From Citricoccus sp. SGAir0253 (GTDB lineage Bacteria; Actinomycetota; Actinomycetes; Actinomycetales; Micrococcaceae): a stretch of 64,000 nt of DNA. The position numbers and the translations under genes are program-made. Shown here in pieces: positions 3,350-58,985 of the stretch. Below the pieces are notes generated by a model that saw nothing but the letters and a program-made list of their open reading frames with translations, was not told the origin of the DNA and did no database searches. Position 1 is the stretch's first letter, and each line of letters begins with the position of its first letter. The stretch is taken from contig NZ_CP039426.1 in NCBI RefSeq assembly GCF_005877055.1, positions 1 to 64,000 of the forward strand, given 5' to 3'.

Positions 3350-3580
3350 TGCATGCGTGCGAGGAACCGCATGACGTGGCCGGCCCAACCGGTCCGGATG
3401 GAGACGTCGAGGCCTATCTGTCGCGCGGTGGCAGCAAGGTCGGCTGGGGCCACGAGCTGGGGGGGGGGGGGGGCGATCGATCGACGAAGTGACGCAATGT
3501 GGTGGCGGGGAGGTCGTCAGGTCATAGCCGACCAGCATGCCGCCTGTCTTGAGCACTCGATGTAGTGCTGCAGTCGGCAC
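3350..3580 (-). pseudogene. C-terminal fragment of a class I SAM-dependent methyltransferase, frameshifted
   Basis: The minus strand encodes ALHRVLKTGGMLVGYDLT, the typical late strand and loop of a class I methyltransferase, then, after a run of 15 C (G at 3459-3473 on the plus strand), QLVAPADLAATARQIGLD and TGWAGHVMRFLARM, a typical C-terminus in another frame. One C fewer in the run would join the two. The AdoMet-binding N-terminus is absent, so the gene is truncated as well as shifted. It abuts the CtaG remnant, marking a rearranged scar. Confidence 0.7.
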
Positions 3581-3813
3581 AGGAAGCGCTCACGCAGGCG
3601 GCGGTTCTGCGGCATGAGGGACAACAGGTTGCCGCGCTGAGGCAACCGGCGCAGGCCGTCAGTGATCTGGTCGTCATCGCGGGCGCTGGCACCGAGCACG
3701 TTGCGCCGGACCAGGCGTTCCCACATCACCGCGAAGGCCTCCCAGTCCAGGGTGCCGATGAAGTCCACGTGCCCGAGCAGTGCGGCGACCTCCTCGGTGA
3801 TGACCTCCGTCAT
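3517..3813 (-). CDS. Hypothetical protein, possibly a truncated gene
   Basis: 98-residue ORF starting 49 nt past the lspA stop on the same strand. The first ~75 residues (starting MTEVITEEVAALLGHVDFIG) have normal composition and look coding; the last ~20 overlap, in another frame, the methyltransferase fragment and are probably not native. I do not recognise the family. Likely the front of a gene whose end was lost when the adjacent remnants were joined. Start uncertain: no good ribosome binding site. Confidence 0.35.
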   Translation of the reverse strand: MTEVITEEVAALLGHVDFIGTLDWEAFAVMWERLVRRNVLGASARDDDQITDGLRRLPQRGNLLSLMPQNRRLRERFLCRLQHYIECSRQAACWSAMT

Positions 3814-3861
3814 CGTCTGGGCATGGCTGTGGACGGGCCGCGGAGGGGTGCCCTGTAGTGG

Positions 3862-4362
3862 TTACCGCGCGGCGTCCACTGTGTCCCGGTCGCGCACTGT
3901 GGCGGTCAGCAGGACCGCGGCCAGTGCCCCGCCGACGATGAAGATGTCCGCGACGTTGCCGATGAACCAGTTCCCGTAGGCGAGGAAGTCCACGACGTGG
4001 CCTTGCCCAAACGACGGGGGGCGCAGGAGCCGGTCGCCCAGATGGGAGGTCACCGCGCCGCCGAGGCACCCGATCACGATCGCCCAGGAGAGGGTACGGA
4101 CCCGGAGGGTGAACCAGATTGCCGCGGCGACCGCCACCGCCGAGAGGACGGTGAAGATCCAGGTCGAGTTGGCCCCGAACGAGAAGGCCGCTCCGGGGTT
4201 GTAGGCCAGCTGGAGCCCGAGCAGGTCCCCCAGGAGCGGGACGCGCTCCCCCGTGGACAGGGTGCTCTCCGCCCACCACTTGGTCCCCTGGTCCAGGACC
4301 ACTACGCCGGCCCCAATCGCAATGGTCAGGAGTACCAGGGGATACCTGCGCCGGTGGTTCAT
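3862..4362 (-). CDS. lspA: Signal peptidase II (lipoprotein signal peptidase)
   Basis: 166-residue inner-membrane aspartyl protease that cuts lipoprotein signal peptides ahead of the lipidated cysteine. Motifs seen: DQGTKWWA (24-31), NPGAAFSF (55-62), GDR with catalytic Asp110, and NVAD with catalytic Asp139. The segment before Asp110 reads TSHLGDRL rather than the usual GNLIDRL, a divergence from housekeeping LspA. It lies downstream of cmtR and the metal ATPase on the same strand (gap about 160 nt), as in lead/cadmium resistance clusters where PbrC-type signal peptidases accompany the pump. It is therefore probably an accessory, island-borne copy. Confidence 0.9.
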   Translation of the reverse strand: MNHRRRYPLVLLTIAIGAGVVVLDQGTKWWAESTLSTGERVPLLGDLLGLQLAYNPGAAFSFGANSTWIFTVLSAVAVAAAIWFTLRVRTLSWAIVIGCLGGAVTSHLGDRLLRPPSFGQGHVVDFLAYGNWFIGNVADIFIVGGALAAVLLTATVRDRDTVDAAR

Positions 4363-4523
4363 TCGTGTCCTTTCGCGATGCGCCCGTTGCCAGGAGCATC
4401 AGTGGAGCATCAGTGGATCTGCTGACCGCCCGACCTGCGCAGTCACTGGAGGCTGCCGGATGGGGGCGGCGGGTCGGGTCTCACCGTGCCTGAGAGGCTC
4501 TGTCCCGCAGGCCCCGCGGGAGC

Positions 4524-6482
4524 TCATCCCACGGCGGCGGGCTGGGCCTGCCGGCCGGCCAGGGCCTGCAGGGGAACGCGCCGGGTGGTGGCGGCGCGCA
4601 GGCCGTTGCCGATGACGACGACCTCGGCGACCTCGTGCACCAGGACCACGGCGGCCAAGCCCAGGACGCCGGTGATGGCCAGCGGCAGCAGCACGGCGAT
4701 GATCAGCAGCGACAGGACGATGTTCTGGTTCATGATCACCCGGCCGCGGCGGGCGTGGGCCAGGGCCTGGGGGATCAGGCGCAGGTCGTGGCCGGTGAAG
4801 GCGACGTCAGCGGACTCGATGGCCGCGTCCGAGCCGGTGGCGCCCATGGCGATGCCCACGGTCGCCCCGGCCAGGGCGGGGGCGTCGTTGATGCCGTCCC
4901 CGATCATCGCGGTGGGTTTGGTGCCGCTCAGCTGGTGGACGGCGGTGGCCTTGTCCTCGGGGCGCAGTTCGGCACGGACGTCCTGAATGCCAGCCTGGGC
5001 GGCGATGGCCCGGGCGGTGCGGGCGTTGTCGCCGGTGAGCATCGTGACCCCGATGCCCTGGCCGGTCAGGGTGGTCACGACGGCGGGGACCTCGGGGCGC
5101 AGTTCGTCGCGGACCCCGATCGCGCCGGCGGCCGCCCCGTCGTGGTGGACGATGACCACGGTCATGCCCTGGTCCTCCAGTTCCTGGACCTGGGCTCCCA
5201 AGGGCCCGGGGTCCAGCCAGCGGGGGCTGCCGACGGTGACCGGGGCCCCGTCAATGCGGCCGGTGATCCCGTGACCGGCGGTCTCGGTGACGCCGGCGGC
5301 CGCGGGCGTGTTTGGGGTGGCGGCGGTGATGGCCGCGGCCAGCGGGTGGGTGCTGTGCTGTTCCAGCGCCGCGGCCCAGCCCAGCACGTCTTGCTCGGCG
5401 GCACCGGGGGCGGTGAGCACGGCGGTGACGGTGGGCTGGTTGCGGGTCAGGGTGCCGGTCTTGTCCACGGCCAGGTGGCGGATCCCGCCGAGGCATTCGA
5501 AGGCGGCCCCGGACTTGATGACGACCCCGAACCGGCTGGCCGCGCCGATCGCGGAGACCACGGTGACCGGGACGGCGATGGCCAGGGCGCAGGGGGAGGC
5601 GGCCACCAGCACCACCAGGGCGCGGGTGATCCACAGTTCCGGGTCCCCGAACAGGGACCCGAGGACCGCGACGGCCACGGCGAGGATGAGCACCCCGGGC
5701 ACCAGGGGCTTCGCGATCCGGTCGGCCAGCCGGGCCCGGCCGCCCTTCTCGGCCTGGGCCTGTTCGACCAGGTGCACGATGGTGGTCAGGGAGTTGTCGG
5801 TGCCGGCGGCGGTGGCCTGAATCTCCAGGGCCCCGGAGGTGTTGATCGACCCGGCCGAGACGGTGTCTCCCGGGCCGACCGCGACCGGGATGGATTCGCC
5901 AGTGATCGCCGAGGTGTCCAAGGAACTGCGCCCGGCGCGCACGATCCCGTCGGTGGCGACCCGTTCCCCGGGCCGGACCACGAGCACCTGCCCGGGGTGC
6001 AGGTCCTTGGCCTCGACCTGAACCGTGGCCGCACCCTGGCGGATGGTGGCGGTCTCGGGCACGAGCTTGAGCAGGGCCCGCAGCCCGGCCCGGGCCCGGT
6101 CCATGGCCTTGTCTTCCAGGGCCTCGGCGATGGAGTACAAGAACGCCAGGGCGGCGGCCTCCTCGAGGTAGCCCAGGATCACCGCGCCGATGGCGCTGAT
6201 CGTCATCAGCAGCCCGATCCCGAGCCGACCCCGGGTGAACAGCCCGCGCAGCGCACCGGGCACGAAGGTCCAGGCGCCCAGCACCAGCCCGACCCAGAAC
6301 ACCACCGTGGCCGCGCCTCCGGCCCCCGACCATTCCAGGACCAGCCCGGTCAGGAAGGCGATGCCGGAGAGCACCGGGAGCAGGATCGCCGCATCTCGCC
6401 ACCACGGCCGGTGCTCCTCGTGCTCCTCGTGCTGCTCGGGTCCGGTCGGCGCCTCCGGGGCGCCACAGCAGGCGGCGCTCAC
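4524..6482 (-). CDS. Heavy-metal P1B-type ATPase (Cd/Pb/Zn/Co-type efflux pump)
   Basis: 652-residue metal efflux pump. Motifs: TGES (194-197), SPC in the ion-translocating helix (296-298), DKTGT with phosphorylated Asp340, GDGIND, and HEVAEVVVIGNGLRA in the last helix. SPC instead of CPC is the hallmark of P1B-4-type pumps, but the last-helix motif differs from the textbook HEGG form, so metal choice is inferred. The N-terminus has a Cys pair (residues 5-6) and a short Glu/His run, not a full metal-binding domain. The GTG at 6482 overlaps the cmtR stop as GTGA, so it is preferred to the ATG at 6509. Substrate Cd, Pb or related is suggested by CmtR and LspA. Confidence 0.9.
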   Translation of the reverse strand: MSAACCGAPEAPTGPEQHEEHEEHRPWWRDAAILLPVLSGIAFLTGLVLEWSGAGGAATVVFWVGLVLGAWTFVPGALRGLFTRGRLGIGLLMTISAIGAVILGYLEEAAALAFLYSIAEALEDKAMDRARAGLRALLKLVPETATIRQGAATVQVEAKDLHPGQVLVVRPGERVATDGIVRAGRSSLDTSAITGESIPVAVGPGDTVSAGSINTSGALEIQATAAGTDNSLTTIVHLVEQAQAEKGGRARLADRIAKPLVPGVLILAVAVAVLGSLFGDPELWITRALVVLVAASPCALAIAVPVTVVSAIGAASRFGVVIKSGAAFECLGGIRHLAVDKTGTLTRNQPTVTAVLTAPGAAEQDVLGWAAALEQHSTHPLAAAITAATPNTPAAAGVTETAGHGITGRIDGAPVTVGSPRWLDPGPLGAQVQELEDQGMTVVIVHHDGAAAGAIGVRDELRPEVPAVVTTLTGQGIGVTMLTGDNARTARAIAAQAGIQDVRAELRPEDKATAVHQLSGTKPTAMIGDGINDAPALAGATVGIAMGATGSDAAIESADVAFTGHDLRLIPQALAHARRGRVIMNQNIVLSLLIIAVLLPLAITGVLGLAAVVLVHEVAEVVVIGNGLRAATTRRVPLQALAGRQAQPAAVG

Positions 6483-6841
6483 GAGGCGACCTCCGCCGTG
6501 TCGCAGCACCCGGGCACCGGGCAGCCCGGGTCCAGGCAGGGCGCGGAGGCGTCCACGGCGAGGGTCACCTCCAGCAGGGCGCTCAGCGCCCGGGCCAGGT
6601 GCGCATCGGCGATCGCGTACCGGGTGCGGCGGCCCTGGTGTTCGACGGCCACGATCCCGCAGTCCCGCAGGCAGGCCAGGTGGTTGGACACGTTCGACCG
6701 GCTCAGCCCCAACGCCTGGGCCAGCTCGGCCGGGTACCCGGGACTCTCCAGCAGGGTCAGCAGGATCCGGGACCGGGTCGGGTCGGCCATCGCCCGGCCC
6801 AGCCGGTTCATCACGTCCAGGCGTGTCGCAATCGTCAGCAT
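6479..6841 (-). CDS. cmtR: CmtR-type ArsR/SmtB metal-sensing repressor
   Basis: 120 residues, the length of Mycobacterium tuberculosis CmtR. ADPTRSRILLTLL and LSRSNVSNHLACLRDCG form the winged-helix. Cys57 and Cys61 in the recognition helix and Cys102 in the C-terminal tail occupy the positions known as Cd(II)/Pb(II) ligands in CmtR; the tail holds three more cysteines (107, 112, 113). When metal binds, such repressors leave the DNA. It is first in the operon cmtR-ATPase-lspA, overlapping the ATPase start by 4 nt. A palindrome 11 bp upstream of its ATG is a likely operator. Start chosen by alignment with the family's MLT N-terminus. Confidence 0.88.
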   Translation of the reverse strand: MLTIATRLDVMNRLGRAMADPTRSRILLTLLESPGYPAELAQALGLSRSNVSNHLACLRDCGIVAVEHQGRRTRYAIADAHLARALSALLEVTLAVDASAPCLDPGCPVPGCCDTAEVAS

Positions 6842-6852
6842 ACGGTGAACTA

Positions 6853-6868
6853 TACAGCCCGTGCTGTA
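6853..6868. promoter_or_regulatory. Candidate CmtR operator
   Basis: Perfect inverted repeat TACAGC-CCGT-GCTGTA, 11 bp upstream of the cmtR start and in the divergent region between cmtR and ccdA. Position and symmetry suit an ArsR-family operator. Binding by CmtR is inferred, not known. Confidence 0.55.
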
Positions 6869-6994
6869 GCGTCTTGTGGGGGCGTCGCCCGGACTTAGGC
6901 GCCCCGACCCGTTGACCCAGTGAGGACCCTTAGTGACTGCCCGTTGTCGCCGCACCTGCCCGCCTCTCCCCTGCCGGGGCCAGGGAGGACGGGC

Positions 6995-7744: not shown

Positions 7745-7784
7745 GATTCCTCCCGACCCCCGACCTCTCCGGATTGGACCGATC

Positions 7785-8554
7785 ATGACTTCCACCGACC
7801 CCGCCCCGGACAAGACCGACTCCACACCGGACAAGACCGCCGCCACCCCGAACCGGCAGCGCCGGGCCAAGATCGTGGTCTGGGTGCTGCTGGGCCTGGT
7901 CGTGGCCGGCCTCATCATCGGCTACCTGGTGGTCCGCGGCACCGCCACCGCCCAGCCGCCCCAGGACGCCGGGCCCTCCACCGCCCAGCAGTCGCAGTCC
8001 ACCGGGCAGCAGACCCAGGGCTCCGGGCAGGTGGTGCGCCAGAACAGCCGGGTACTCTCCCAGGCCCCGAACGAGAAGGCCGTGCTGGTGGAGTTCCTGG
8101 ACTTCGAGTGCGAGGCCTGCGGTGCGGCCTACCCGTTCGTGGAGGACCTGCGCGCCCAGTACGGGGACACGGTGACCTTCGTGAACCGCTACTTCCCCCT
8201 GCCGGGTCACCGCAACGCGATGCCCGCCGCCATCGCGGTCGAGGCCGCCGCCCAGCAGGGGGCCTATGAGCCGATGTACCAGAAGATGTTCGAAACCCAG
8301 GCCCAGTGGGGGAGGCCGCCGAGGACAAGAGCGCGGTGTTCCGTGGCTACGCCGAGGACCTCGGCCTGGACCTGGCCGCCTACGACGCCGCCGTCGCCGA
8401 CCCGGCCACCCGGGACCGGGTCGAGCTGGACGTGGCCGACGGCACCGCCCTGGGCGTGTCCGGGACCCCGACCTTCTACCTCGACGGTGAGCCGCTCACC
8501 GTGTCCAGCGTGGAAGAGTTCACCGCCGCCGTCGAGGCCGCCGCCCAGGACTGA
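7785..8554 (+). pseudogene. DsbA-family thiol:disulfide oxidoreductase, frameshifted
   Basis: A membrane-anchored thioredoxin-fold protein: one N-terminal helix (about residues 26-48), a Gln/Ser-rich linker, the active site in FECEACGAAYPF (CEAC), and a cis-Pro loop GVSGTPTFYLDGEPL. The reading frame breaks after the motif QAQWG: the run of five G at 8308-8312 would need a sixth to read WGEAAEDKSAVF, which continues cleanly in the next frame to a stop at 8552-8554. The intact product would be about 256 residues. Likely sequencing error or a slipped homopolymer, since both halves are otherwise well kept. With VKOR next door it would form disulfides in exported proteins. Confidence 0.85.
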
Positions 8555-8613
8555 CGGACCGCACCCGCCGCGGGACGCCCGAGCCGCGATTGATGCCGAA
8601 ACCGAGGACTGCG

Positions 8614-9297: not shown

Positions 9298-9375
9298 GGG
9301 CCACCCAGTCAGCCCGGGCCTATCGGTGGGCGGCGTGGACCAAAGCCAGGATGACACTCGCATCGGTCCGCGGCC

Positions 9376-10450: not shown

Positions 10451-11065
10451 ATGCTTCACAACGTGGCCCGAGCCGTCCGCTCGGTCCTGACCGTGCTGGC
10501 CGTCCTGGTGCTGGCCGTGCTGGCTGCGGCCTCCCCGGCGGCGGCCCATGACGTCGTGACGCGCACCGATCCCGCCGATGGACAGAGCTTCGGCTCGGCC
10601 CCGACAGCCGTTGAGGTCTCCTTCAGCGATGCGCCGCTCGCGCTGGGCGCGGAGATCCTGGTCGAGGACGCGCAGGGCGTGGACTGGACCACCGGGGAGG
10701 TGCAGATCGACCAGAACAACGCCGTGCAGCCACTGCGTCCCGATGCTCCGGCCGGGCAGTACACGGTGACCTGGCGGGTGGTGTCCTCGGACTCCCACCC
10801 GATCGAAGGCTCGTTCGGATTCACCGTGGCCGGGGCCGGCGCTTCACCGACCGGCTCTGCGCTCTCCACGCCGGCCTCGTCCGCCCCCGCCACCCCTGCC
10901 CCGACGCAGGCCGCGTCCACTTCCCAGGCCAGCGCCGAGCAGCCAGATCAGGGCTTCCCGGCCGGCTTCATCGTCGTGCTGGTGGCGATCCTGGTGCTGG
11001 CTCTGGTGATCGTCGTGGTGGCCGTGCTGGCCCGGCGCCGAGCGGACGCCACGGACCGCCGATGA
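10451..11065 (+). CDS. copC: Copper resistance protein CopC with C-terminal membrane anchor
   Basis: 204 residues. A Sec signal peptide ends at SPAAA, leaving an N-terminal histidine (HDVVTRTDP) as in CopC proteins, where His1 and a second histidine in SDSHPIEGSF bind Cu(II). The beta-barrel (to about residue 128) is followed by an Ala/Ser/Thr-rich linker and one membrane helix near 175-197 ending in ARRRADATDRR. ATG has an AGGAGGT site 8 nt upstream. It overlaps copD by ATGA, so the two are translationally coupled. It binds copper outside the membrane and hands it to CopD. Confidence 0.9.
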   Translation: MLHNVARAVRSVLTVLAVLVLAVLAAASPAAAHDVVTRTDPADGQSFGSAPTAVEVSFSDAPLALGAEILVEDAQGVDWTTGEVQIDQNNAVQPLRPDAPAGQYTVTWRVVSSDSHPIEGSFGFTVAGAGASPTGSALSTPASSAPATPAPTQAASTSQASAEQPDQGFPAGFIVVLVAILVLALVIVVVAVLARRRADATDRR

Positions 11066-13070
11066 GCACCATCCCCACCTCGGCGAGGGCGCGGTCCGGT
11101 ACTGCCTCAGGACCGGGTGCCCCGGCCGCGTCGGTGAGGCCCTGGGCCTGGATCACCTGGCTGGTGGTGGCGTTCGTGCTGGCCGGGCTCAGTGTCGCGG
11201 CCAGTGCGGCGTATTCCGGGGCGGTCGCCGAACGCGACACCGTGGACCCCGGGGCCCTGGTGCGGTGGATGCTGCCGACCGCGGTGGCCGTGCACCACCT
11301 GGCGCTGGCCGTGGTGGTCGGTTGCCTGCTGTTCGCGGCCACCGTGCTGCCGCGCTGGCGCGCCGGTGGGGTCCCGGGTGACCGCCGGGCCCACCCGGCA
11401 TTCACCCGGGTGGTGACCGCCGCGGCCGCCGTGTCCGTGCTCTGGGCGCTGTCGGCGGTGACCGTGCTGGTGTTCACCTATGCCAGTCTGTCTGGGCTGC
11501 CGGTGTCCGGCAGTCCAGCGTTCGCCCGGGAGCTGGCCTACTTCGTCACCGACCTGGTCGTGGGCCAGGCGTGGGCCGTCGTGGTGGTGATCGCCTTTGT
11601 CGTGTCCACCCTGGCCTTCCTCGTCCGGTCCCCGGCCGGACTCGGCGCCACGGCCCTACTGGCCGCCGCGGCAGCCCTCCCGATCTCCCTGGTGGGCCAC
11701 GCCGCCGGCAGCGATGACCACTACGCCGGCGTGGGGGCCCTGGTTGTGCACTGGCTGGGCGTGCTGGTCTGGGTGGGCGGGGTGGCCGCCCTGACGGTCA
11801 TCGCTTCCACTCTCGCGCCCTCCCGGTCTCGGGGCAGTGCGGCCGACGACGGGTTGTCCCGGGCGGTGCTGGAACGGTTCTCGGCGCTGGCCGGTGTGGC
11901 CTTCTTCCTGGTCCTGGCCTCCGGGGTGATCAACTCAGTCCTGCGCCTGGGCTCCTGGGACGGGTTGTTCACCCGGTACGGCCAGCTGATCCTGATCAAG
12001 GCCGCCGCGACCATGGTGTTGGGTGCCATCGGCCTGGCGCACCGCCGATGGGCCATCGCCCGGCTCGGGGCCGTCCCGGCCCGCCGGACCGCCTGGCGGC
12101 TGGTGGTGGCCGAGCTGGCCGTCATGGCCGGTGTCATCGGGGTGACCGCCGCCCTGGGCCGCACCGCCCCGCCGGTGCCTCAGGAACTGAAGCCGGCGCT
12201 CACCCCGGCGGAGATCCTCACCGGTTACCTGTTGCCCCCGAACTGGCCGGGGACCGGTGGCTCACCGAGTGGCGGTGGGACTGGGCCTGGGTCGCCTTCG
12301 CTCTCACCGCCGCCACCGTCTACCTCCTCGGTGTCCGCCGGGCGCGCGCCTGGCGCTGGCCGCGGACCCTCAGCTGGCTGACCGGGCTGGGCGTGCTGAT
12401 CTACGTCACCTGCTCGGTGCCGACGGTCTACGGCCCGGTGCTCTTGAGCGCCCACACCCTGATGCTGCTGGCCCTGGCCGTGCTCGTCCCGCTGCTGCTG
12501 GTCCTCGGCGCGCCCCTACAGCTACTCTGCCTGACCGTGCCCCGCCGCACCGACGGCAGCCGCGGGCCCCGGGAATGGCTCGACGCGGCCCGGCCGGCGC
12601 TGTCGGCCCCGGCCCGCACTGCCGCGATCCTGGCCGTCTCCCTGGGGTTGGTCTACTACACCCCGCTGTTCCGGCTGGTACTGGAATACTGGCTCGTCCA
12701 CCAGGCGGCGAACCTCTACTTCCTGGCCGTGGGGTTCTGCTTCATGACCGCGGTGCTCGGGCCCGGCGCCGGGCGACCGATCCCGCGAGGCGCCCGGATC
12801 CGCACCGCAGCGGTCCTGGCCGCGGCACTGCTGGTCTGGGCCGTGGTGCTGGCCGCCGGAGTCCTGCCGGTGCTGGAGCCGGACTGGTTCATCGACATGG
12901 CCCGCACGTGGGGACCCCCCGTCACCATGGACCAGCAGCTGGCCGGGATCTCGGTACTGGTGGCCGGCTTCGCCCCGATGGCCCTCCTGCTCACCGCACT
13001 GATCCTGTCCAGGCCACAGCTGGCCCCATCGGGTCCACCCGACAGTCCTGACCGGGGCCGTCACCGGTAG
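11062..13070 (+). pseudogene. copD: CopD-CtaG fusion protein (copper uptake/oxidase assembly), frameshifted
   Basis: Frame one (11062 to a stop at 12379-12381) encodes an eight-helix CopD domain, ending EILTGYLLPPNW. From about 12240 the next frame encodes RWLTEWRWDWAWVAFAL and a complete caa3_CtaG domain to 13070. Actinobacteria commonly carry this as one polypeptide of 650-700 residues. The break is at a run of five C (12235-12239): six would read LLPPELAGDRWLTEW without interruption. The intact product would be about 669 residues. It overlaps copC by 4 nt. Either a sequencing error or a real split; the second half has no good independent start. Confidence 0.87.
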
Positions 13071-13643: not shown

Positions 13644-14096
13644 CTATCCGGTGGCGGAGCCGGTCAGGTCGCGCTTGATCTGCGGTTCACCGGAGTCCTC
13701 GAAGATGATGAGGACGTCTTGGTGCACCGTGCCGTCAGGCATGGTGACGTCGGCCCGGAGGGCATTGCCTCGCCATCCCTTGTCTTCCACGGACTCGGCA
13801 CCGTATTTCGTGGCGACGTTCTCCTGGATGTTGTTCTGCGAAGTGATGTCTCCGTAGATCGAGTAGCCGATGGCCCCCAGGCCGATGACCAGGACGCCTG
13901 CCCCCGCGATCACCTCGCGCACGGCGTCCTTCATCCGTCCCGGTCCGGCGTAGCGGGCGTCCTCGTCGTCCCAGTGGGCCTGATAGCGCTTGCGCCGCCA
14001 CCAGCCATGGGCGAGGACCGCCAGCCCCGCGATGGCCAGCAGCGTGCCGACCCATTGGGTGACGAGGGGAGTCTGGAGGTCGATCGGTGCGTACAC
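13644..14096 (-). CDS. Small membrane protein, DUF3592-like
   Basis: 150 residues with a membrane helix near 14-32, a basic loop (WWRRKRYQAHW), a second helix near 60-82, then an extracytoplasmic beta-rich tail containing VTMPDGTVHQDVLI. This two-helix plus soluble domain plan is that of DUF3592 proteins, whose role is unknown. It faces a divergent four-helix membrane protein gene. Assignment is by architecture. Confidence 0.6.
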   Translation of the reverse strand: MYAPIDLQTPLVTQWVGTLLAIAGLAVLAHGWWRRKRYQAHWDDEDARYAGPGRMKDAVREVIAGAGVLVIGLGAIGYSIYGDITSQNNIQENVATKYGAESVEDKGWRGNALRADVTMPDGTVHQDVLIIFEDSGEPQIKRDLTGSATG

Positions 14097-47188: not shown

Positions 47189-49056
47189 GTGTCCGTTGTT
47201 GTGTCCCCGGAAAGGAACACCGCCATCGTAGCGCACCCTTACTCAGCGCTGCCAGAAAAACCCATCCTTCGGCGAGCCGTGCCCAACCCCGGCCCCGCAG
47301 AGGCATGGGCAGCGCTGGCACCCTTGCTTGCTGGCCGCCCACGAGTTCGACTTTCTCGTGACGGCGGTCGGAACTATCCGCTCCGCAACGAGCGGGACCT
47401 CACACTCACCCTGCCGACGCAGCCGGCTGCTCCCCTGATATATGCCTCCGACGGCACCTGCCGCACGCTCTGCCTGGACTTCGACGCTAAGGGCCCCAAC
47501 GCTGAGCGCTCGGTACTAGCCGACGTGCATACCGTCTGCGGACTACTGCACGAGTCAGGAGCCGCTTGGATTCGCGATCGTTCCCCCAGCGGAGGCCGCC
47601 ACCTCTACGTGCCTCTGGCAGAGCCACTGGCCTTCCACCGTGCACGCGAGCTCGTCGAAGCGATCGCGCTCATTGCGCCCACCCTGGACCCATCCCCGCA
47701 CCGCGGCATCCGTCACGGATGTATCCGCATGCCCGGCGCCGTCCACCGCTCTGGCGGACACCAGGAGCTCGAGATGCCCCTGGACCACGCCCTCGCCGTG
47801 GCCTCCCACCCCAACGGCTCCGATGCGATGGGCCGACTCTGGGATGCCCTGATCGAGCAACGCCGTCTCGTCCGTGCCGCACGCGAAGTGGAGGAGGGCA
47901 CCTGGACCGAAGCCACTACCCTCTCCCATCAGGACGATGAGCGTCCACTGGAGCCGGCCAGAGTGTCCAGCATGTCCGCGGACATGCTCCGGACCGCGAC
48001 CGACGGCACCTGGAACCGCAACCGGTACTGCTCTCCTTCCGAGGCCCGGCAGGCCGTTCTGGTCAGCGCCGCGGGCGCCGGACTGCAACTGGTTGATATC
48101 CAGCGACGAATCCACAGTGGCATGTGGCCTGGACTGGCCCAGTTCTACTCCCGCTACTCCCCCCACACCGCCAGTCAGCCCTGAAGCGCGACTGGGTAGA
48201 GGCCCGAAGGTACGCCACCAGCAAGTCGTCGCATACCGTCCGCAAAACCAACACAAGCCAGCTTTCTACACAGCGGGGGGGCCAACCAGACTTTCAATTC
48301 GTGCGCACCTGGCTGAACGCGTTCTCCGCTTCTGAGCTTCGCTACGGCAACGACCGGCGAGGGTTGACCAAGCGTCTCGTATTGCGGGCCGTAGCCGAGG
48401 CGTGCATGAAGTCAGGCAGCCGCCTCGTCTCCTTCGGAGTCCGCTCCTTGGCCGTTGCCGTGGGGACTGATGCGGGCACAGTGTCCAGACACTTGAAAGA
48501 GCTCACAGCCATGGCCGCTCCCCTGCTCCGCCTCGTCCGGCGTGGCCGAGGGACGGAGGCAGACGCCTACGAGCTGGTCATTCCGGACCACCTGCAACAT
48601 GCTGCCGAGAGCCGCTCTTGGAGGCCAGGCAAAATCCACGCTTTACGGCCTGTCTTCCGTGCATTGGGAGTGCCTGAAGCGCTCGTGTTTGAGGAGCTAG
48701 AGCGCGCTGGAAACCCAATGCCGGTGAAGACTCTGGTCCTGCAGACCGGGCTTTCCCGTTCCGCGGTCAATGATGCGCTGGCCGTACTGGCGTCCTGGCG
48801 TTTGGTTACCGGTATCCATGGTGTCTGGAGTGTGGTGGCTAACGCAGATTTAGACGAACTGGCCGAGCACCTTGGGATGGCCGAGGAGGTTGCCGCCCAA
48901 GTATCCCGTTACCGCGCGGAGCGCGCCGAATGGCACGCGTGGTTGCAGGCTCGAGCGGTGGCGCAGTCGGCCGGGTACCTTGATGATTTACAGTTTGGGT
49001 CGTTGCTCTGGGAGTTAGCCGAGCCGCCGGATGAGACCGTCGTACTAATACGCTGA
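47189..49056 (+). pseudogene. Plasmid replication initiator (primase-type Rep), frameshifted
   Basis: The first frame (47189-48184) encodes an archaeo-eukaryotic-primase-like domain: LCLDFDAKGPNAERS (DxD metal site, about 91-105) and SPSGGRHLYVPLAE, with HGCIRMPGAVHRSGGHQELE. The next frame (to 49056) supplies the rest, including two winged-helix units (RSLAVAVGTDAGTVSRHLKE and LVLQTGLSRSAVNDALAVLA) suited to iteron binding. The join is at six C (48159-48164); seven would read SRYSPHRQSALKRDW. Intact length about 622 residues. A plasmid must replicate, so the break is probably a sequencing error. GTG start uncertain. Confidence 0.78.
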
Positions 49057-49987: not shown

Positions 49988-50818
49988 ATGACTGAAGTTA
50001 AGGCCGAGATGCCGCCGAAGGTGTTGGCTGTGGCCAACCAGAAGGGCGGGGTCGGAAAGACCACCGTGACGGTGGGACTGGCAGAAATCTACGCCCTACA
50101 CCAAGGACGAAAAGTCCTGGTCGTCGACGCTGATCCCCAGCGCAACACCACTTCCGCGTTGGGCGTCACGGATCCCGAGTTCACCCTGAATGACGTGCTC
50201 TACGGTGACCCGGACAATAACCAACGCATTCATCCTGGCTCGGCCGCGGACGCCATCGTGCCGGCCGGCATTGCCTGGCAGGCCGGGATCGGTACGCTTG
50301 ACGTCATAGCCGCGGAGCGCAACTTGGCTATACGAGAGCGGGACTCAATGATCGCCCGCGAGGCCCGTCTCCGAACTGCCCTACGCGGTGTGGCCGAGGA
50401 ATACGACGTCATCCTGATCGACTGCCCTCCATCACTGGGCATGCTCACCGTCAACGCACTCACCGCCGCCAATTACGCTGTGCTCGTCACCGAGCCCAGG
50501 GTGTCCTCCTTTGAAGGGCTCCTGGAGATCGCCCGCACCATGGTCGAGGTGGGGGAGGCATTCAACGAGAACCTCGGCATCGCCGGGATTGTTGTGAACA
50601 AGACCCGCAAAGGCCGTGTGGACCAAGAATCCTGGATGCGTCGCATGGTGGATGAGTACGGAGACCTCCTGATCGAGCCGGCTCTTCCGGATCGGGAGGC
50701 CTTCGCCAAGGCCCACGCCGAATCCCGGCCGCTGGTGTCCTTCGGTCCCTCAGTACAGGGCAGCCTCGATCCGCTGGAGCGGATCGCGAACAAGGTGTGG
50801 CAGGGGGCTGAACTGTGA
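49988..50818 (+). CDS. parA: Plasmid partition ATPase ParA
   Basis: 276 residues. Deviant Walker A KGGVGKTT (19-26), VVDADPQRNTTSALG, and ILIDCPPSLGMLTVNALTAA define ParA. It forms dynamic gradients that separate plasmid copies. ATG at 49988 has CGGAGAT 6 nt upstream; the frame is open to 49880, but those residues are not family-like. It overlaps the next gene by GTGA. No extra N-terminal helix-turn-helix, so type Ib-like. Confidence 0.93.
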   Translation: MTEVKAEMPPKVLAVANQKGGVGKTTVTVGLAEIYALHQGRKVLVVDADPQRNTTSALGVTDPEFTLNDVLYGDPDNNQRIHPGSAADAIVPAGIAWQAGIGTLDVIAAERNLAIRERDSMIAREARLRTALRGVAEEYDVILIDCPPSLGMLTVNALTAANYAVLVTEPRVSSFEGLLEIARTMVEVGEAFNENLGIAGIVVNKTRKGRVDQESWMRRMVDEYGDLLIEPALPDREAFAKAHAESRPLVSFGPSVQGSLDPLERIANKVWQGAEL

Positions 50819-51339
50819 GCACCGAGAATTCCCGGCGGGGGAGCGGAGTCGAGGGCGGCGCCTTGCTCCGTGGACTAAAGAAGGCTCCCAAAACATCCGT
50901 GGTCAGCGAGCTGGGCGGTCTCCCCCCGGCACCCGCTCCGGCCGCCGAGCCAGAAGAATTTAGGCAAGAGAAGCCCCAGACTGAACCGGGCGCGCAGCCA
51001 ATACGGCGCGGACCGGACCCCGAGCCCGTCCGCCAGGTGGTCCCCGAACCGACTCCCCAGGTCAACCCTGCCGCGAAGCAGAGCAAACCGGCCAAGCCCA
51101 AACGCGAGAAGATCAGCTACTACCAGGACTCGGAGGACGCGTACCGCATCCGCGCGGCCCATGTGAACACCATCGCCCGGACTGGCTACAGGTCGCTGTC
51201 CGACTTCATCGCCAGCGCCGTGATGAAGGAGTGTGCCCGGTTGGAGGCCGCCTACAACGACGGCGAACCGTTCGCCACCGGCGGGGACCTGGTGAAGCGA
51301 GGTCGGCCGCAGCGCCTTGAGGACACAGACGACCGCTAA
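50815..51339 (+). CDS. ParB-like partition protein
   Basis: 174 residues. A Pro/Lys-rich disordered half (to about 100) is followed by a folded C-terminus (ISYYQDSEDAYRIRAAHVNT, GYRSLSDFIASAVMKECARL) of ribbon-helix-helix type. It starts 4 nt inside parA, the usual place for the centromere-binding partner. No ParB nuclease domain, so it is a small type Ib-like partner. Its binding site may be the inverted repeat upstream of parA. Confidence 0.78.
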   Translation: MSTENSRRGSGVEGGALLRGLKKAPKTSVVSELGGLPPAPAPAAEPEEFRQEKPQTEPGAQPIRRGPDPEPVRQVVPEPTPQVNPAAKQSKPAKPKREKISYYQDSEDAYRIRAAHVNTIARTGYRSLSDFIASAVMKECARLEAAYNDGEPFATGGDLVKRGRPQRLEDTDDR

Positions 51340-52115: not shown

Positions 52116-52142
52116 CCCCAAAACGTATCACCACCAGGGTGG

Positions 52143-52176: not shown

Positions 52177-52330
52177 GGATGCGCCGCTGGATCACGCGGC
52201 TTCCCAGTGAACGTAGGGAGTGTCTCGCGAACGATCGTTTCCGCAACAGCCGCTCCCGAGTGCGACCGGAACGCCGTGGAAGGCCTCCCGCTGCGCGGCC
52301 AGCGTTGGTTGCGGGACACTCGGGGTGGTC

Positions 52331-52850
52331 ATGGGGAAGTTGATCGGGTATGCGCGGGTCTCCACTCGCCGGCAGGACGCCGACCGGCAGGTCGAGGACC
52401 TGCTGGCGGCCGGCGTGCGGGGTGATGACGTGTACGTGGACCATGGGATGTCCGGTGCCCGGGCCTCCTGGCCGAAGTTCGACCAGGCGGTGACCGCCCT
52501 CCAGGACGGGGACACCCTGGTGATCACCACCCTGGACCGGTTGGGGCGATCCACGCCGAACATGCTGGCCTTCGCCGAGATGCTCCGGAACCGGGGAGCG
52601 GGGCTGCGGGTGTTGAACCTGGGCGGGGGAGAGGTGGCCACGCACATCCCGATGGGCTCGATGGTCTTCACGGTGATGGCGGCTCTGGCGCAGATGGAGT
52701 GGAGATCAGCGCGAACGCATCACCGACTCCGTCGCTAAGCGCCGGGCGGCGGGCCAGGACCTGGGCGGCCGCCGGCAGACCTTCACCGACTCCCAGATCC
52801 GCAGCGGCGCCCACCTGGTCGAGTCCGGCCAGCCCGCGGGCCAATTAGGT
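52331..52850 (+). pseudogene. Serine recombinase, frameshifted and truncated
   Basis: IGYARVSTRRQDADRQVEDL with catalytic serine and TTLDRLGRSTPNMLAFAEML are intact, but after AQME the frame fails (stop at 52736-52738). The following frame reads RERITDSVAKRRAAGQDLGG and RQTFTDSQIRSGAHLVESG, then loses the helix-turn-helix. Two small base losses near 52690-52712 would restore the middle, but the C-terminus is truly missing. It faces the resolvase on the other strand. Confidence 0.82.
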
Positions 52851-52907
52851 CGAGGATTGGGGCCGTCAAGCTTTCCTCACCTTCCCTCGGGGTTGCGCTA
52901 TTTGAGG

Positions 52908-54800
52908 TTAGTTGGCGGCATTAATAAGTGACCGAACGCCTGCAACCGGTGCCAGCAACCGGCCCGAAGGGTCGACGGAGCAGTTTTCTGAGACTAGGGC
53001 GTAGGTCGCGGCGTTCTTGTTCCCCACACCCCGACCGCTGGTGATTGTGCTCTCCAGCTCCGTGTTCCACTCAGGCCAGTCGTCGTCGATGACGCTTTCC
53101 AACGTGTCGGATATTGCCAGCAGCTCCGGCGAAACCAGTCCCTCGGGATAGTCCTCCTCCTCCACGTCGAAGTACCTCAAAATCGCCCGGTTGTCGTTCT
53201 TATGTTGTTGAACTGCATTACGGATATCTCTTGTAGATTTATTTTTCTTCTCCATGCGGCTGGCACAGCCGGAGTCGTTGTCAAAGACGGTTAACGTTGG
53301 AATTCCCAATTCGCTCAAAATGGCGTGTGGGATATAGAGGTGGTCCTTTCCTTGAGCGGCTGCCACGGAGATGCCGTCAATGGCTAGGTGCCGATCTCGC
53401 GATGCGATGCCCTCGAATACCGCTTTATCCCCGTCTCCCTCTACGAGCAACACGGCGTCCGCGAATAGGGCCTCGGACAGGTGTTGGGTGCAGACGAGAT
53501 CCCATCTTGCGGTGATCACCTTCGCATCGACGTAGCCGTCCAGCTTCTTGGCCACGGCCTCGACAGTGGCCCGTGTGATTGTGACCTCGGCGTGGCTGTC
53601 GGGATCTGAGGAGGTTCTACGGACCCGCCGGATTTGGTCAAAGTATCGTGCGTCAATGAAGTAGGGAGAATGGGTGGCGTAGGAGATCTGCAGCCCATTA
53701 GAAGAAGCCGCGGCGAGCGATCGTAGGACGCTAGAGAATGCTCGTGCCTGAGTCGGATGCTGAAAGAGCTCCGGTTCCTCAATGGCCAGACAAATGACGC
53801 TTTCGGGGGATTCTTTTGTGCCCCGGTTGGCGAGCATTTTCAGGCTTGAAATCAGGAGGGCTCGTTGGAAGCCGTGACCTTGTCGGTCCACATCTGTCTC
53901 TGTCAGTTGATCAACGACGCTGACGCGAATCTTCGATGCCTGGGGTTTCAGCTCAGGTTGTTCCGGCAGCAACCGGATCTTACGACCGGTGGTGAACGCC
54001 GCAATCTCCTCACTGAGATCTGTTGCCAGGTCAGTTAGCTGCGAGGTGAGGTGTTTAGCGGCGATTTCGGTGCGTTTCGTTGCCACTTCTTCCGCAAGCG
54101 ACAAGAAAGCCGCGTCGGCGTTGGTTCGGTCGACCGTCTTTTCCAGGATGCGGCTAATGATCGTGCCCTTGCTGTCCACGCTCTCTTCGTGAGCGCGCAA
54201 ATCAGCCGTGACCAGAACGAAGTCGAAGATGCCGGAGAGGACGTTCCGTCCGTTGAAACCGAAAAGATGGTTCCCGCCCGACTCCGATTCCTGGAGCTGG
54301 TCGGAGTGCTCTCTTTCCCACTCTTCCATGGCCGCCTCGGTCTTCGGGGCGGAGGACCATTTGGGGAGGTTGAGGCCTGGGTGAGATTCCAGGACCTTTG
54401 CCCATGCGGTCTTCATGTCCGATGCCGAGGAGGCGCTTCGAACCTCCTCGAAAGGCAGGAACACAAAAGCATTCCCCGTCATCTTGTCTTCCCCTGGCGT
54501 CCAGGTGCGCCAGGCGGTGAAGGTCTCGGCGGACGCCGGTGCATACTTCTCACCGAGAGCCTCCCGGTCCGTGGCGGTCAGACCGTCAAACGTCACTCGT
54601 ACCCGGACCTTTAACTCAGCACTGCCAGACCATACATCCCGTTCATCAAGCGAGCCGCCATTGAAGAACCAATTCAGAGCTCGAAGCACTGAGCTTTTGC
54701 CGGCGCCATTGGGACCGATGAATGTGGTGATGGCGTCGAAATCAATCTCCACGCTATTGAGGCACCGAAAATTTTCAATGCCGACAGATTGGATACGCAA
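52908..54800 (-). CDS. OLD-family ATP-dependent endonuclease
   Basis: 630 residues. N-terminal AAA/ABC-like ATPase: Walker A IGPNGAGKSSVL (28-39), signature and Walker B region in VICLAIEEPELFQHPTQARA; C-terminal TOPRIM nuclease: AVLLVEGDGDKAVFEGI (about 448-464) and TVFDNDSGCAS. This is the OLD plan; such nucleases act in phage defence. Gabija pairs one (GajA) with a UvrD helicase (GajB), which is absent here. It lies 130 nt from a restriction-modification gene on the same strand. Target unknown. Confidence 0.87.
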   Translation of the reverse strand: MRIQSVGIENFRCLNSVEIDFDAITTFIGPNGAGKSSVLRALNWFFNGGSLDERDVWSGSAELKVRVRVTFDGLTATDREALGEKYAPASAETFTAWRTWTPGEDKMTGNAFVFLPFEEVRSASSASDMKTAWAKVLESHPGLNLPKWSSAPKTEAAMEEWEREHSDQLQESESGGNHLFGFNGRNVLSGIFDFVLVTADLRAHEESVDSKGTIISRILEKTVDRTNADAAFLSLAEEVATKRTEIAAKHLTSQLTDLATDLSEEIAAFTTGRKIRLLPEQPELKPQASKIRVSVVDQLTETDVDRQGHGFQRALLISSLKMLANRGTKESPESVICLAIEEPELFQHPTQARAFSSVLRSLAAASSNGLQISYATHSPYFIDARYFDQIRRVRRTSSDPDSHAEVTITRATVEAVAKKLDGYVDAKVITARWDLVCTQHLSEALFADAVLLVEGDGDKAVFEGIASRDRHLAIDGISVAAAQGKDHLYIPHAILSELGIPTLTVFDNDSGCASRMEKKNKSTRDIRNAVQQHKNDNRAILRYFDVEEEDYPEGLVSPELLAISDTLESVIDDDWPEWNTELESTITSGRGVGNKNAATYALVSENCSVDPSGRLLAPVAGVRSLINAAN

Positions 54801-54931
54801 AAGTCCTCGCTAGATCAGTGACCAGTTGGGTGATTGCCTCAGAGCCTGCCCCCGCATGAAGGATTCCGGCTGGCGACACGGGCTTGCCTCAATAAGCGCA
54901 GCAGCCAAGCCCGCTGCACTGCGATAGTGGC

Positions 54932-57900
54932 TTAGTCGATTAACCGGGGGTGCTCTGTCAGATCAACAGGGCTGGAATCTCTCTTGATCGTCTTCGGGAC
55001 CTTTCGTTCTGCTGCGGATGGGGCCGGGAGATCGGATGCAGCAATGAGCGGCCCGGAGAGGACCTGTACCAGCAGGTCTGCCTGGTCAGCGTATTTGTCG
55101 ACAGTCGCGGTCAAGACCCGTAGGAGGTCGAGCAACTCGTCGTTCCATTCGTCTTCCCATTCGGTAGGACGGATCCTGTCGAGGGGCTTGGCAGCCTTGC
55201 CGGCGGCCTTCCCGATCCCCTTGCGAGTTCGGGCGCCCAACCACTTGTCGAGGACATTCATCCCTGACACCTCGAAGTGGCGGACTGCGGGAATCACGCC
55301 TCCCACGACTCCGTCCCCGACATGAAGCTGGTGTGCGTTCGCGTCGTATTGCACGGCTTTCATGTCTTCGGGGATGGCCGTGACTGGTTCGAGCCAGACC
55401 AGACCATCACGGCGCGGCACGCGCCCGTGTGGGCGGTCCTCGGTGGTAAAGCGCGTCCCGAAAGTCTGGAGCCAGAGAAGCTCTCGGCCTAGGTCGACGG
55501 CTCGGGAGAATAACTGTGGATCGTTGGTGATCGGGACGTGAACGGGGTCGTTCTCGAGCTGGTCGTGGAACGTCTCGGTGTACCCCGGATGGGCTAAGAC
55601 GGCGTAGCAGTAGGCCAGTAGGTCTTCTGGACTTATGGGGTCGCCGAGTGCCTCTGCAAGTTTGGCCAGCAGCCCGGCGGTGATGTTCGCTTGGCTGCAC
55701 TCCGCGTCCCGGTAGAGAGGGATAACGTCCTTGCCTCCGAAAGAGCCTCGGAAATAGTGCAGGTCGGGGATGCCGACCGAAACCGTTGCTGCTGGGCCGT
55801 TGCTGATACGAGCCGTCCAAGGCGACACCAGGAAGATCTGCTGGTCCGACAGCCCCTGCCACAGTGCCGGTCGTTCAAGGTTGGCTAGGCGCGGATCATC
55901 GAAGGTCCACTGCTGGTCGAAAGACCGCCACCCCATCCGCACGATTGTCTGGGCCGTCGCCCCCGCGGGTAACTCGGCCAATGGTGGCAGGGAGCCGACC
56001 TTCGTATGGATATCTCTTCCGGAGTGTCCGTCTACAAATTTTTCGGCCCGCGTATCAGCACTTTCATCGACAAGAAGCTCTGTCCACCGCCGCTTCAAGA
56101 CGTCGCGGGAAGGTGCGACGGGCCAGGTGCGGTTGTACTTGATTCCGGGCTGCTGCCAGGGGAACAGATCGACCAGCGATGGCATGGCTGACCACTGATT
56201 GTCTGTGGCCACAGGGATGAACCGCTCACCGTTGGGTGCGTCGAACTCGGTCCAACCGTCTGTGGGATCGAGGCGGTCGATCTTATCGAGTTGGTCGAAC
56301 TTTTCCTGGCGTGACCCCCGGAATCGACGGTAGAAGATCTTTGCGGTTCGGCTGGCTTTGCCGGACTTGACGAGGGTAACGATAGCCACCGGGGACTGGA
56401 TGTCGAACACGTTGTCTTCCTTGCGGGCGCCGCGTCCTTCGCCACCGAGGTCCATCACCCAGATTTCACTGGCGGTCTCAACGGCCAGTTTGCGCAGACC
56501 TAGGAATGCTGGCCCGTCCAGCCAGGAGGAAGCGGTGATGAAAGAGACGACGGCCTTCTCCTGCGGGTCCTGCTGGAAAGCCTTCCAGATGGCCCAGCGC
56601 CAGAAGTAGACGTACATGTTGTACAGCGACGCTTGGGCGGAGAAGATGACGCCAGCATCCTGTGCCGGCTTGATCACGTCGTCGAACAACGGGGCTTTGC
56701 CGTCCTCGCGGTGGACGACCCACCCCCCGCTCTCCGAAGTGACCCGGTCATAGGGGGGATTGCCAATGGCCACAGTGATCTGCTGCTCGGCCTTGATTTT
56801 CCTGGCTTGTTCGGCCGCCTCGGCGAGGACCTTGGCATCACCGAACAGGCCAGGGCTGGCCGGCGTGTGTGGGTCTTCCAGGGTGTCGGTGAGATACACA
56901 CCGATCTCATCTGCCTGGAACGCCTGTCCCTGGGCCTCGGCCAGCCTCTGCCCAACGCGCAGGTGAGCGACGGAGTACGGGCCGGGCAGAAGCTCGAAGG
57001 CGAGGACATTCTTGGTCAGGTTCTTGGCGACCTGGCGGGCGCCAGCCGGGCCGCGTTCCTCGAACGCGGTTTCCACAGCCTGGTCGATCACTGCCAGCGG
57101 GTACGTCCCCGAACCAGTAGCCGGGTCGAGGGTCACCACGGACTTTGAGCCGAAACCCAGCGTCTGGCCGAACCGATTGCGCAACAGGTGGTCGACGATC
57201 CTCACCTGGCACTGCACCACGCTCATCGGGGTGTAGTAAACACCAGCCTGCTTGCGCGCTTCGGGATCGTACTTGGCCAGGAAGTCCTCGTAGAACCACA
57301 GCCATGGTTCACCGCGGGAGTCCTTGGAGGACTGGATGGCTGGCACATCGAGGCTGGAAATCAGCCGAACGATCGCCCCCAGTTCCGGGCCGATGTACTC
57401 GGTGAGCTTCGGGATGCCGATGATCGGCCCCAGCGCCGCGGCCAGCACATTGCGATGGGCGGTAGCCAGGGCGTCCTTGGCCTCTTCCAAGGTCACCGTC
57501 CCGTCGCTGTTGCGGTCCGCCTGACCCGACAGGCCCGCGATGGCCATCGCGTATGCAATGACTTGCGCGACGTCACTGGAGAACTGCGTTGACGACGTGG
57601 TCTGGTGGACCGTGCCGTCCCAGGCGGCCTTGGCGTCCAAGACGGCCTGCACCTTGTGCTCCAGGCCCTCGTCCAGCCGGATGCGGATGAACCGGGCCAA
57701 AGGCGCCAGGCGGTCGGCCAACTGGCTGACCCGCCTGATCGGGCTCACCTTAGCCAGGACAAATTTCTGCAGGAGATCGAGTAGCTGCTGGTGATCCCAT
57801 GATTCAGGAGATTCGAATGGCAGCTCACATTCAGCAGTCGGCGCGCCGGCAATGTACAGGATGGCGCGCTCACCATTGGTGACAATCAGGGAGTCGAGCT

Positions 57901-58219
57901 GGGCGAGCAACTCCCACTGGCCTTTTTCTCGTCCTCGCCACTTCTCCCCGATAAGAGTGTGCCCGGGAGCTTTCAGCTCTATCCATCCGCAGGGCTTTCC
58001 GTCGATGGTGGCCGCGAAATCCGGTCTCACGCCGTCCAGTTGGGCCTCACGGATCAGACTCAGGGTGCCCAGCCCATTCTCTGCGGCGAAGGCCTTGAAG
58101 AAGGTGGCCAGAGGGATCGTGAGCTGGGCCTCGGGTTCGGCCGCAATGCTGTAGCTGGTGGCACTTTGGACGTCCGCGGAGTAAGCCTGCGCCAAATTAG
58201 AAATTGCCAGTTGATCCAT
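54932..58219 (-). CDS. Single-chain restriction-modification enzyme (type ISP/IIG-like)
   Basis: 1095 residues. An N-terminal PD-(D/E)XK nuclease (VRPDFAATIDGKPCGWIELK, about 64-83), a helical linker, an N6-adenine methylase (motif I LDPATGSGTYPLAV near 365, motif IV IGNPPYDRVT near 480), and a C-terminal target-recognition region ending EVSGMNVLDKWLGARTR and EWNDELLDLLRVL, as in type ISP enzymes. The middle SF2 helicase of true type ISP enzymes is not seen, and the length is short for them (about 1580). It may cut like a type IIG enzyme. Next to the OLD nuclease. Confidence 0.86.
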   Translation of the reverse strand: MDQLAISNLAQAYSADVQSATSYSIAAEPEAQLTIPLATFFKAFAAENGLGTLSLIREAQLDGVRPDFAATIDGKPCGWIELKAPGHTLIGEKWRGREKGQWELLAQLDSLIVTNGERAILYIAGAPTAECELPFESPESWDHQQLLDLLQKFVLAKVSPIRRVSQLADRLAPLARFIRIRLDEGLEHKVQAVLDAKAAWDGTVHQTTSSTQFSSDVAQVIAYAMAIAGLSGQADRNSDGTVTLEEAKDALATAHRNVLAAALGPIIGIPKLTEYIGPELGAIVRLISSLDVPAIQSSKDSRGEPWLWFYEDFLAKYDPEARKQAGVYYTPMSVVQCQVRIVDHLLRNRFGQTLGFGSKSVVTLDPATGSGTYPLAVIDQAVETAFEERGPAGARQVAKNLTKNVLAFELLPGPYSVAHLRVGQRLAEAQGQAFQADEIGVYLTDTLEDPHTPASPGLFGDAKVLAEAAEQARKIKAEQQITVAIGNPPYDRVTSESGGWVVHREDGKAPLFDDVIKPAQDAGVIFSAQASLYNMYVYFWRWAIWKAFQQDPQEKAVVSFITASSWLDGPAFLGLRKLAVETASEIWVMDLGGEGRGARKEDNVFDIQSPVAIVTLVKSGKASRTAKIFYRRFRGSRQEKFDQLDKIDRLDPTDGWTEFDAPNGERFIPVATDNQWSAMPSLVDLFPWQQPGIKYNRTWPVAPSRDVLKRRWTELLVDESADTRAEKFVDGHSGRDIHTKVGSLPPLAELPAGATAQTIVRMGWRSFDQQWTFDDPRLANLERPALWQGLSDQQIFLVSPWTARISNGPAATVSVGIPDLHYFRGSFGGKDVIPLYRDAECSQANITAGLLAKLAEALGDPISPEDLLAYCYAVLAHPGYTETFHDQLENDPVHVPITNDPQLFSRAVDLGRELLWLQTFGTRFTTEDRPHGRVPRRDGLVWLEPVTAIPEDMKAVQYDANAHQLHVGDGVVGGVIPAVRHFEVSGMNVLDKWLGARTRKGIGKAAGKAAKPLDRIRPTEWEDEWNDELLDLLRVLTATVDKYADQADLLVQVLSGPLIAASDLPAPSAAERKVPKTIKRDSSPVDLTEHPRLID

Positions 58220-58413
58220 GCCCTGTGATGCCCCCGTGCTCTGCCATAAGGTTCCAAGTCAGCTTAGAGGGCCAGGTCAGCTTTGCTTGTCCGGTCAGGC
58301 TTGTCTCGGGCATCGGGCACATAACCACAGACCTGTCCGCTGAGCATTCAGGGAGCATGGATAGACCCGGCACGCCCTCTCTTCCCAGCCGCCCCACTCC
58401 GGAGGTACTTTGA

Positions 58414-58440
58414 GATCCGCGCAGAGGCTCTGCGCGGATC
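58414..58440. terminator. Hairpin upstream of the restriction-modification gene
   Basis: GATCCGCGCAGA-GGC-TCTGCGCGGATC, a perfect 12-bp stem with 3-nt loop. No T-run. It lies between the restriction gene and the recombinase remnant and may end transcription from either side or be an element boundary. Confidence 0.5.
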
Positions 58441-58673
58441 CTGACATAGGAGCAGAACCGGACATATGAAAACAATCCGATATTTCAGTCCATCGTTGCG
58501 CGGGATAAACCTGCGCAAGATGGTATTGAAAGGATTGTCATATGAAAAGTCCGGAGTCCTTTTTCCCTCCGCCTGAAGGCTCGTTCATCGAGGCCCTTCG
58601 CCTCGCGACCGTCTACATGGAGTTCTTGGTAGCTCTCTTTAGGCTGATCCAGACGCTTTTCCTCTAATACCCC

Positions 58674-58704
58674 ATGGGAGGCCTCCACTACGGAGGCCTC
58701 CCAT
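58674..58704. terminator. Hairpin downstream of the recombinase remnant
   Basis: ATGGGAGGCCTCC and its exact complement, 13 bp, loop ACTAC (58687-58691). Lies at the 3-prime end of the minus-strand recombinase fragment, so a terminator is likely. Confidence 0.5.
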
Positions 58705-58714
58705 TTATCCGAAG

Positions 58715-58985
58715 AGCACGCGAGGTGCCATACGCCGAGCCCGCGCTCGTCCCGGTCATGGATGAGGTTCAGGGTATCCCTCACGGTGCGCCCCAGCCGG
58801 CTCAGGGTGTGCACGACGATGACACCCCCTCCCGGGCCTGGTCTAGGGCGGCGTGCAATCCGGGGTGGTGGGTATTGGCCCAGGATTCTTGTCGATGTAG
58901 ATCCGACCGGCCACGATCCCTTCCTTGCGCAGAGCATCGATCTGCCGATCCAAATCTTGTTTTGTACTCGACACCCGCGCTTACC
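58715..58985 (-). pseudogene. Serine recombinase fragment with two frame breaks
   Basis: Three frames read in order give VSSTKQDLDRQIDALRKEGI then AGRIYIDKNPG, NTHHPGLHAALDQARE, and VIVVHTLSRLGRTVRDTLNL ending GLGVWHLA: the front of a resolvase catalytic domain. Frames change at C runs 58879-58881 and 58825-58829 (plus strand), each repaired by one extra base. The rest of the domain and the helix-turn-helix are missing, so it is truncated as well. Confidence 0.75.

Follow-up and report, generated by a model that had tools for sequence, protein, structure and literature searches.

Clustered one-base losses that split conserved genes on a plasmid-like Micrococcaceae contig: a best reading of mostly artefact, beside two ordinary relics

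Single-base insertions and deletions that split otherwise intact genes are a described failing of long-read sequencing (Kastor, PMC12007338; Polypolish, PMC8812927). In the Kastor report, 69% of the errors in a long-read assembly were indels, mostly false deletions, which were commonest after runs of 4-5 bases, and run errors were commoner at A/T than at G/C (PMC12007338). In a separate benchmark, the best pipelines likewise erred more often at A/T runs than at G/C runs, and errors were not enriched on plasmids (PMC11232133). Real indels of similar form are described as well. The mycobacterial polymerase DinB1 makes genuine -1 slips in runs (PMC9346131), and reversible frameshift indels are reported from M. 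tuberculosis (PMC8339072). In M. smegmatis, spontaneous short indels favour insertions (141 versus 66; PMC4938668).

The window analysed here is the first 64,000 bases (1-64000) of contig C3, a plasmid-like contig of about 99 kb (99,421 bases) in a Micrococcaceae genome of 3.56 Mb and three contigs. Among the genes on C3 are several for cytochrome c biogenesis and for copper, a Rep-like gene adjoined by ParA and ParB genes, and resolvase, relaxase-like, OLD-like and type ISP genes (Table 1). In a search of plasmid records, the top plasmid match of the first 24 kb of the window was a Citricoccus plasmid; no phage record matched window 1-24000, and scanning viral contigs with the CtaG piece returned no match. 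C3 may be circular, because its final gene resembles, by eye, the Citricoccus TlpA gene located before ResB; no exact overlap was found between its two ends. At window 52908-58219, an OLD-like AAA/TOPRIM gene adjoins a type ISP restriction-like gene, and the pair may form a defence island. A tRNA-Gln call by ARAGORN at window 4812-4911 lies inside a P-type ATPase gene and is probably false. The 3' end of this ATPase is present in two copies (window 4524-4761 and C3 96885-97117) that are 94.5% identical, with a one-base and a four-base gap; from the alignment, the copy is probably a relic duplicate.

We found eight one-base losses at seven sites on C3, seven of them in DNA alignments and one, in Rep, in protein alignments. 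These losses resemble the long-read errors in that single-base indels split otherwise intact genes (PMC12007338; PMC8812927) and in the excess of deletions, most often after runs of 4-5 (PMC12007338). They differ from the errors described for Kastor, which are more frequent at A/T, in that they are strongly concentrated at G/C runs and on one plasmid-like contig (PMC12007338). The DNA here is 59-75% G+C, and A/T runs are rare. DinB1 frameshifts are likewise -1 events in homo-oligonucleotide runs in an actinobacterium, but they were demonstrated with reporter genes, whereas here we see eight losses on one contig and zero gains (PMC9346131). The indels and scars of M. tuberculosis share frame breakage in low-complexity DNA, and differ in being reversible; we noticed no restoring indels on C3 (PMC8339072).

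Our best overall reading is that the breaks are mostly artefact, with two ordinary relics beside them. We think it probable that the clean breaks are long-read consensus errors, mostly in short G/C runs, and that the genes are intact in the living plasmid. These breaks affect four genes of the window (DsbA, CopD-CtaG, Rep, the 52.7-kb resolvase) and two beyond it (TnpV and a helicase). The original prediction had proposed long-read homopolymer error as the likeliest cause of the breaks it listed. That proposal is the best supported one for the clean breaks and does not extend to a relic holding a 15-base G run or to a truncated recombinase.

Table 1. Features of the window discussed in the text, in window coordinates.
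Feature	Position	Strand	Evidence and remarks
CtaG 3' end relic	2969..3267	-	71% DNA identity to window 12709-13020
SAM-dependent methyltransferase tail relic (presumed)	3356..3550	-	holds the 15-base G run (C on the minus strand)
Cytochrome P450-like gene, middle part, relic (presumed)	3556..3843	-	91% DNA identity; full-length gene in G102 and G082
DsbA-like thioredoxin, 5' piece (Thioredoxin_4)	7785..8312	+	ends at G5 8308-8312; PF13462, E 7.3e-09; alignment with relatives
DsbA-like thioredoxin, 3' piece, different frame	8306..8554	+	coding score, GC3 0.96; tblastn of relatives' proteins
ORF with CopD part of CopD-CtaG fusion	11062..12381	+	PF05425, E 2.6e-20; in-frame homology stops at C5 12235-12239
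ORF with CtaG part of CopD-CtaG fusion	12048..13070	+	PF09678, E 3.4e-37; homologous from about 12238
Rep-like protein, 5' piece	47189..48184	+	break at or near C6 48159-48164; tblastn; net -1 at protein level
Rep-like protein, 3' piece, winged-helix domains	48124..49056	+	PF12802; 105 plasmid records matched
ParA-like partition ATPase adjoining Rep	50030..50818	+	AAA_31, E 9.3e-39
ParB-like centromere-binding protein	51037..51339	+	PF18064, E 8.5e-15
Serine resolvase in two frames	52331..52868	+	two separate one-base losses near 52,699 and 52,707
Recombinase relic, three frames	58719..58980	-	tblastn and DNA alignment with pCha1 recombinase

The evidence is clearest for DsbA and CopD-CtaG, where the predicted positions of the breaks, at a run of five G and a run of five C, hold up against relatives. 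Within 30 bases either side of the run, all 32 aligned relatives have one base more than the window at DsbA, as do 29 of 32 at CopD-CtaG (33 given, 32 aligned), the exceptions comprising two with a net difference of 0 and one with a net difference of 2. The pieces, searched separately, adjoin in a single frame in 32/32 loci for DsbA and 33/33 for CopD-CtaG; each set consists of 29 listed loci, a few plasmids and L130, some of them near-identical, with L040 and L130 representing the same place. (Coding scores come from a frame HMM trained on annotated Citricoccus genes.)

Rep is a weaker case. The predicted run of six C is present, and a one-base break there is seen at the protein level only (net -1 against three references); the break is tied to the run by position, because no DNA alignment spans the site. 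The two pieces share one frame in 27/27 records among the matches listed for both, several of these plasmids looking near-identical; one of them, Hiyo8, has a break of its own elsewhere. By tblastn, the 5' piece matched 187 plasmid records, 41 of them spanning at least 80% of the query, and the 3' piece is the sole match for itself within its own genome. A real break would split this gene next to ParA and ParB, a point in favour of error. Conservation of the split genes in relatives had been put forward as evidence against misreading; we found no split copy among them (0/32 for DsbA, 0/33 for CopD-CtaG, 0/27 for Rep).

Three further genes with losses were absent from the list in the original prediction. 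In the resolvase, the DNA alignment places the two losses 8 bases apart, neither of them in a run, and protein identity to a Citricoccus resolvase is 89% and 83% on the two sides of the break. TnpV, which precedes the helicase, has a one-base loss near 80.37 kb of C3. In three plasmids the helicase (C3 80,735-85,763) is encoded by a single CDS of about 1,660 aa; here it is split twice by one-base losses about 640 bases apart, near 83.04 kb and 83.68 kb, the second of which we read from the tblastn table. The stretch between these losses is the best conserved part of the protein (87%, against 77-78% outside).

To place these breaks in context, we matched C3 with 734 reference ORFs from relatives, 222 of which gave matches covering 51,899 bases; the window accounts for 37,505 of these. 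Six groups were flagged in this census, one each in DsbA, CopD-CtaG, Rep, the 52.7-kb resolvase and TnpV and one at the helicase break near 83.04 kb; the second helicase break was not flagged, and no one-base gain appeared. Alignments to C3 of at least 45% identity held no internal stop codon, counting stops more than 15 residues from the match end. The assignment of the losses to homopolymers is correct in the main: 6 of the 8 lie at G/C runs of 4-6, which with their neighbours make up 7.1% of covered C3 (P 3e-6), and the exceptions are the two in the resolvase. The recombinase at 58.8 kb is left out of these counts because it is truncated and was not flagged by the census.

Chromosomal samples compared with a congener (G082) gave a different picture. 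At 1.0-1.3 Mb, 160 of 229 references matched, with zero breaks in 175,883 bases; at 2.0-2.4 Mb, 290 of 433 matched, with one break in 296,558 bases; and the reverse search of the congener returned zero breaks in 184,546 and 306,883 bases. A stop at 161,306 in the chromosome sample was discarded for the low identity around it. Seven sites in 51,899 bases of C3 against one in 472,441 chromosomal bases corresponds to P 7e-7, and the six automatic flags against one to P 6e-6, a comparison between references that are not fully alike, those for the chromosome being the congener's chromosomal genes and those for C3 largely accessory genes. The detector recovered 55 of 80 planted one-base losses, so the break rates are low by about a third.

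Related DNA carries few such breaks. When stretches of relatives (six sets, five plasmid and one M. terreus contig) were searched with the C3 ORFs, the 130,050 bases covered gave three flags. Two of these mirror the CopD-CtaG break of C3. The third, L094 near 14107 in M. terreus, is a -1 relative to a small conserved C3 gene (window 13644-14096, minus strand). The second plasmid-like contig, C2, yielded over 31,626 covered bases a clean -1 at 38190, one nonsense codon (at 35655, inside a well-conserved small gene) and two doubtful flags, at 26031 and 57638, which we discarded for poor or partial alignments. A scan of genome contigs returned one relative, Micrococcus terreus, and no independent sequence of the same strain. 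Duplicated stretches exist between C3 and C2 and also within C3; a close twin of the IS110 copy, sought for internal comparison, was absent.

The only break in the chromosome samples falls in gltX, the gene for glutamyl-tRNA synthetase, which is essential. The break lies on the minus strand near C1 position 2,162,570, where gltX is one base short at a C run relative to G082, the only gap in an alignment of 84% DNA identity. We found no second full-length gltX in the genome; the second match covers residues 17-281 of 520 at 41%. In an essential gene for which our search turned up no further full-length copy, such a break almost surely reflects faulty assembly. Since the same type of break sits in an indispensable gene, the clean breaks on C3 are most likely misreads too. 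The proposed course is that the long-read consensus lost bases, mostly within short G/C runs, so that intact genes would look split. The reads would have been long and poorly polished, and if C3 was covered more thinly than the chromosome, which is a guess, that would explain the crowding of losses on C3. This crowding on one contig, in place of a spread over the whole assembly, is the weak point of an error reading. We therefore stop at probable, and give some weight to recent real loss, because thin coverage is assumed and the benchmark saw no enrichment of errors on plasmids (PMC11232133).

Measures of constraint bear on the age of the breaks. When the broken pieces are compared with relatives, omega is low and mostly inside the range found among the relatives themselves. 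Somewhat higher values come from the DsbA 3' piece (up to 0.67; 0.62 among relatives), the resolvase (0.14-0.17; 0.07-0.10) and one Rep pair (0.46; 0.28). The test is weak, because low values (0.28-0.36; 0.21 among relatives) are also obtained for a P450 relic whose breakage is certain. All that omega indicates is that any death of the genes is not old; it does not distinguish error from recent mutation. Against their best references, the pieces of DsbA, CopD-CtaG, the resolvase and the helicase share 73-89% protein identity and TnpV about 65%; Rep, for which only remote references are available, reaches 45-49%. The argument of the original prediction that good preservation speaks against old decay thus holds in part: both halves have low omega, but the P450 relic is well preserved as well.

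The most serious alternative is that the losses are real and recent, made by slippage of an error-prone polymerase on a plasmid that is no longer selected, for example in culture. Their concentration on one accessory replicon would be expected from such a process, as would the relics on the same contig, and omega is compatible with it; a -1-prone polymerase is on record in mycobacteria (PMC9346131), and C2 also has its clean -1 break and nonsense codon. Nevertheless, eight -1 events occurred on C3 without any +1 or nonsense change. With the M. smegmatis ratio of 141:66, eight losses in eight events have P 1e-4, a figure that borrows from another genus and includes a Rep loss inferred from protein (PMC4938668). 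Moreover, the relatives' stretches show just three flags, two of them mirror images, and both Rep and, on the chromosome, gltX are affected. We regard recent real loss as possible and unlikely. A narrower form, a plasmid-specific burst of real deletions that removed single bases from short G/C runs and brought no insertions, could involve an error-prone polymerase possibly acting on plasmid DNA. It would leave the plasmid with a split Rep, unless other replication genes, which are possible, lie on C3, and we find it somewhat more doubtful still.

Old decay holds for two places, which are a separate matter from the clean breaks. The first is the locus of the 15-base G run (window 3459-3473). 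It had been described as a methyltransferase tail that one base would rejoin. In fact the run exceeds that of an intact methyltransferase by 8 bases, the alignment has further gaps, and the region, 2969-3843, holds three gene fragments (Table 1), with gene parts missing. One we take by eye from the sequence to be a SAM-dependent methyltransferase; aligned with the intact gene in L154, it shows 69% DNA identity and a gap of 8 bases at the run. Another is presumably P450-like, by eye from a heme-binding motif. The locus is a true relic. The second place is the recombinase at 58.7-59.0 kb. The two predicted one-base losses, near 58825 and 58879, are present, but the gene is also truncated: similarity stops after residue 93 of 200, and the C-terminal half was not found. 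That the clean genes too are long-dead pseudogenes is very improbable, given their low omega, the level of protein identity of their pieces and the finding of one-base losses as the only type of lesion.

G/C runs of at least 10 occur at seven places in the genome: five between scored ORFs, one in the 15-G relic and one apparently in a gene. The last, 15 C at C1:2481317-2481331, seems to lie inside a membrane-protein gene (by eye, five glycines on the minus strand) and may vary in length. Two more C runs, of 16 and 13 bases at C1:1865896-1865911 and C1:2738450-2738462, lie between scored ORFs and are far above the usual run lengths.

Phase variation, in which run lengths would flip in the population and switch genes on and off, had been offered as the biological alternative. 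The runs do lie inside coding sequence, and reversible frameshift indels are reported for M. tuberculosis (PMC8339072), but there is no long repeat tract at DsbA, CopD-CtaG or Rep, where the runs are 5, 5 and 6 bases. Runs of 5-6 are common on C3 (135 covered) and in the two chromosome samples (534 and 811), and a run of at least 5 is kept at the site in just 3/32 relatives for DsbA and 14/32 for CopD-CtaG. We consider this alternative slightly less credible than old decay of the clean genes. Programmed ribosomal frameshifting or coupled translation of two half-proteins, which the 61-base overlap of the Rep ORFs might suggest, is the least credible of all, as every copy in the three relative sets uses a single frame.

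If long-read consensus error, the preferred explanation of the clean breaks, is right, functional genes for copper, thiol-disulfide chemistry and replication appear dead in the public plasmid sequence, an essential synthetase appears broken, and annotators would call pseudogenes that do not exist. The gltX break offers a cheap internal alarm for assembly errors of this kind. If the losses are real, the plasmid would instead have undergone an unusual, plasmid-wide loss of single bases.
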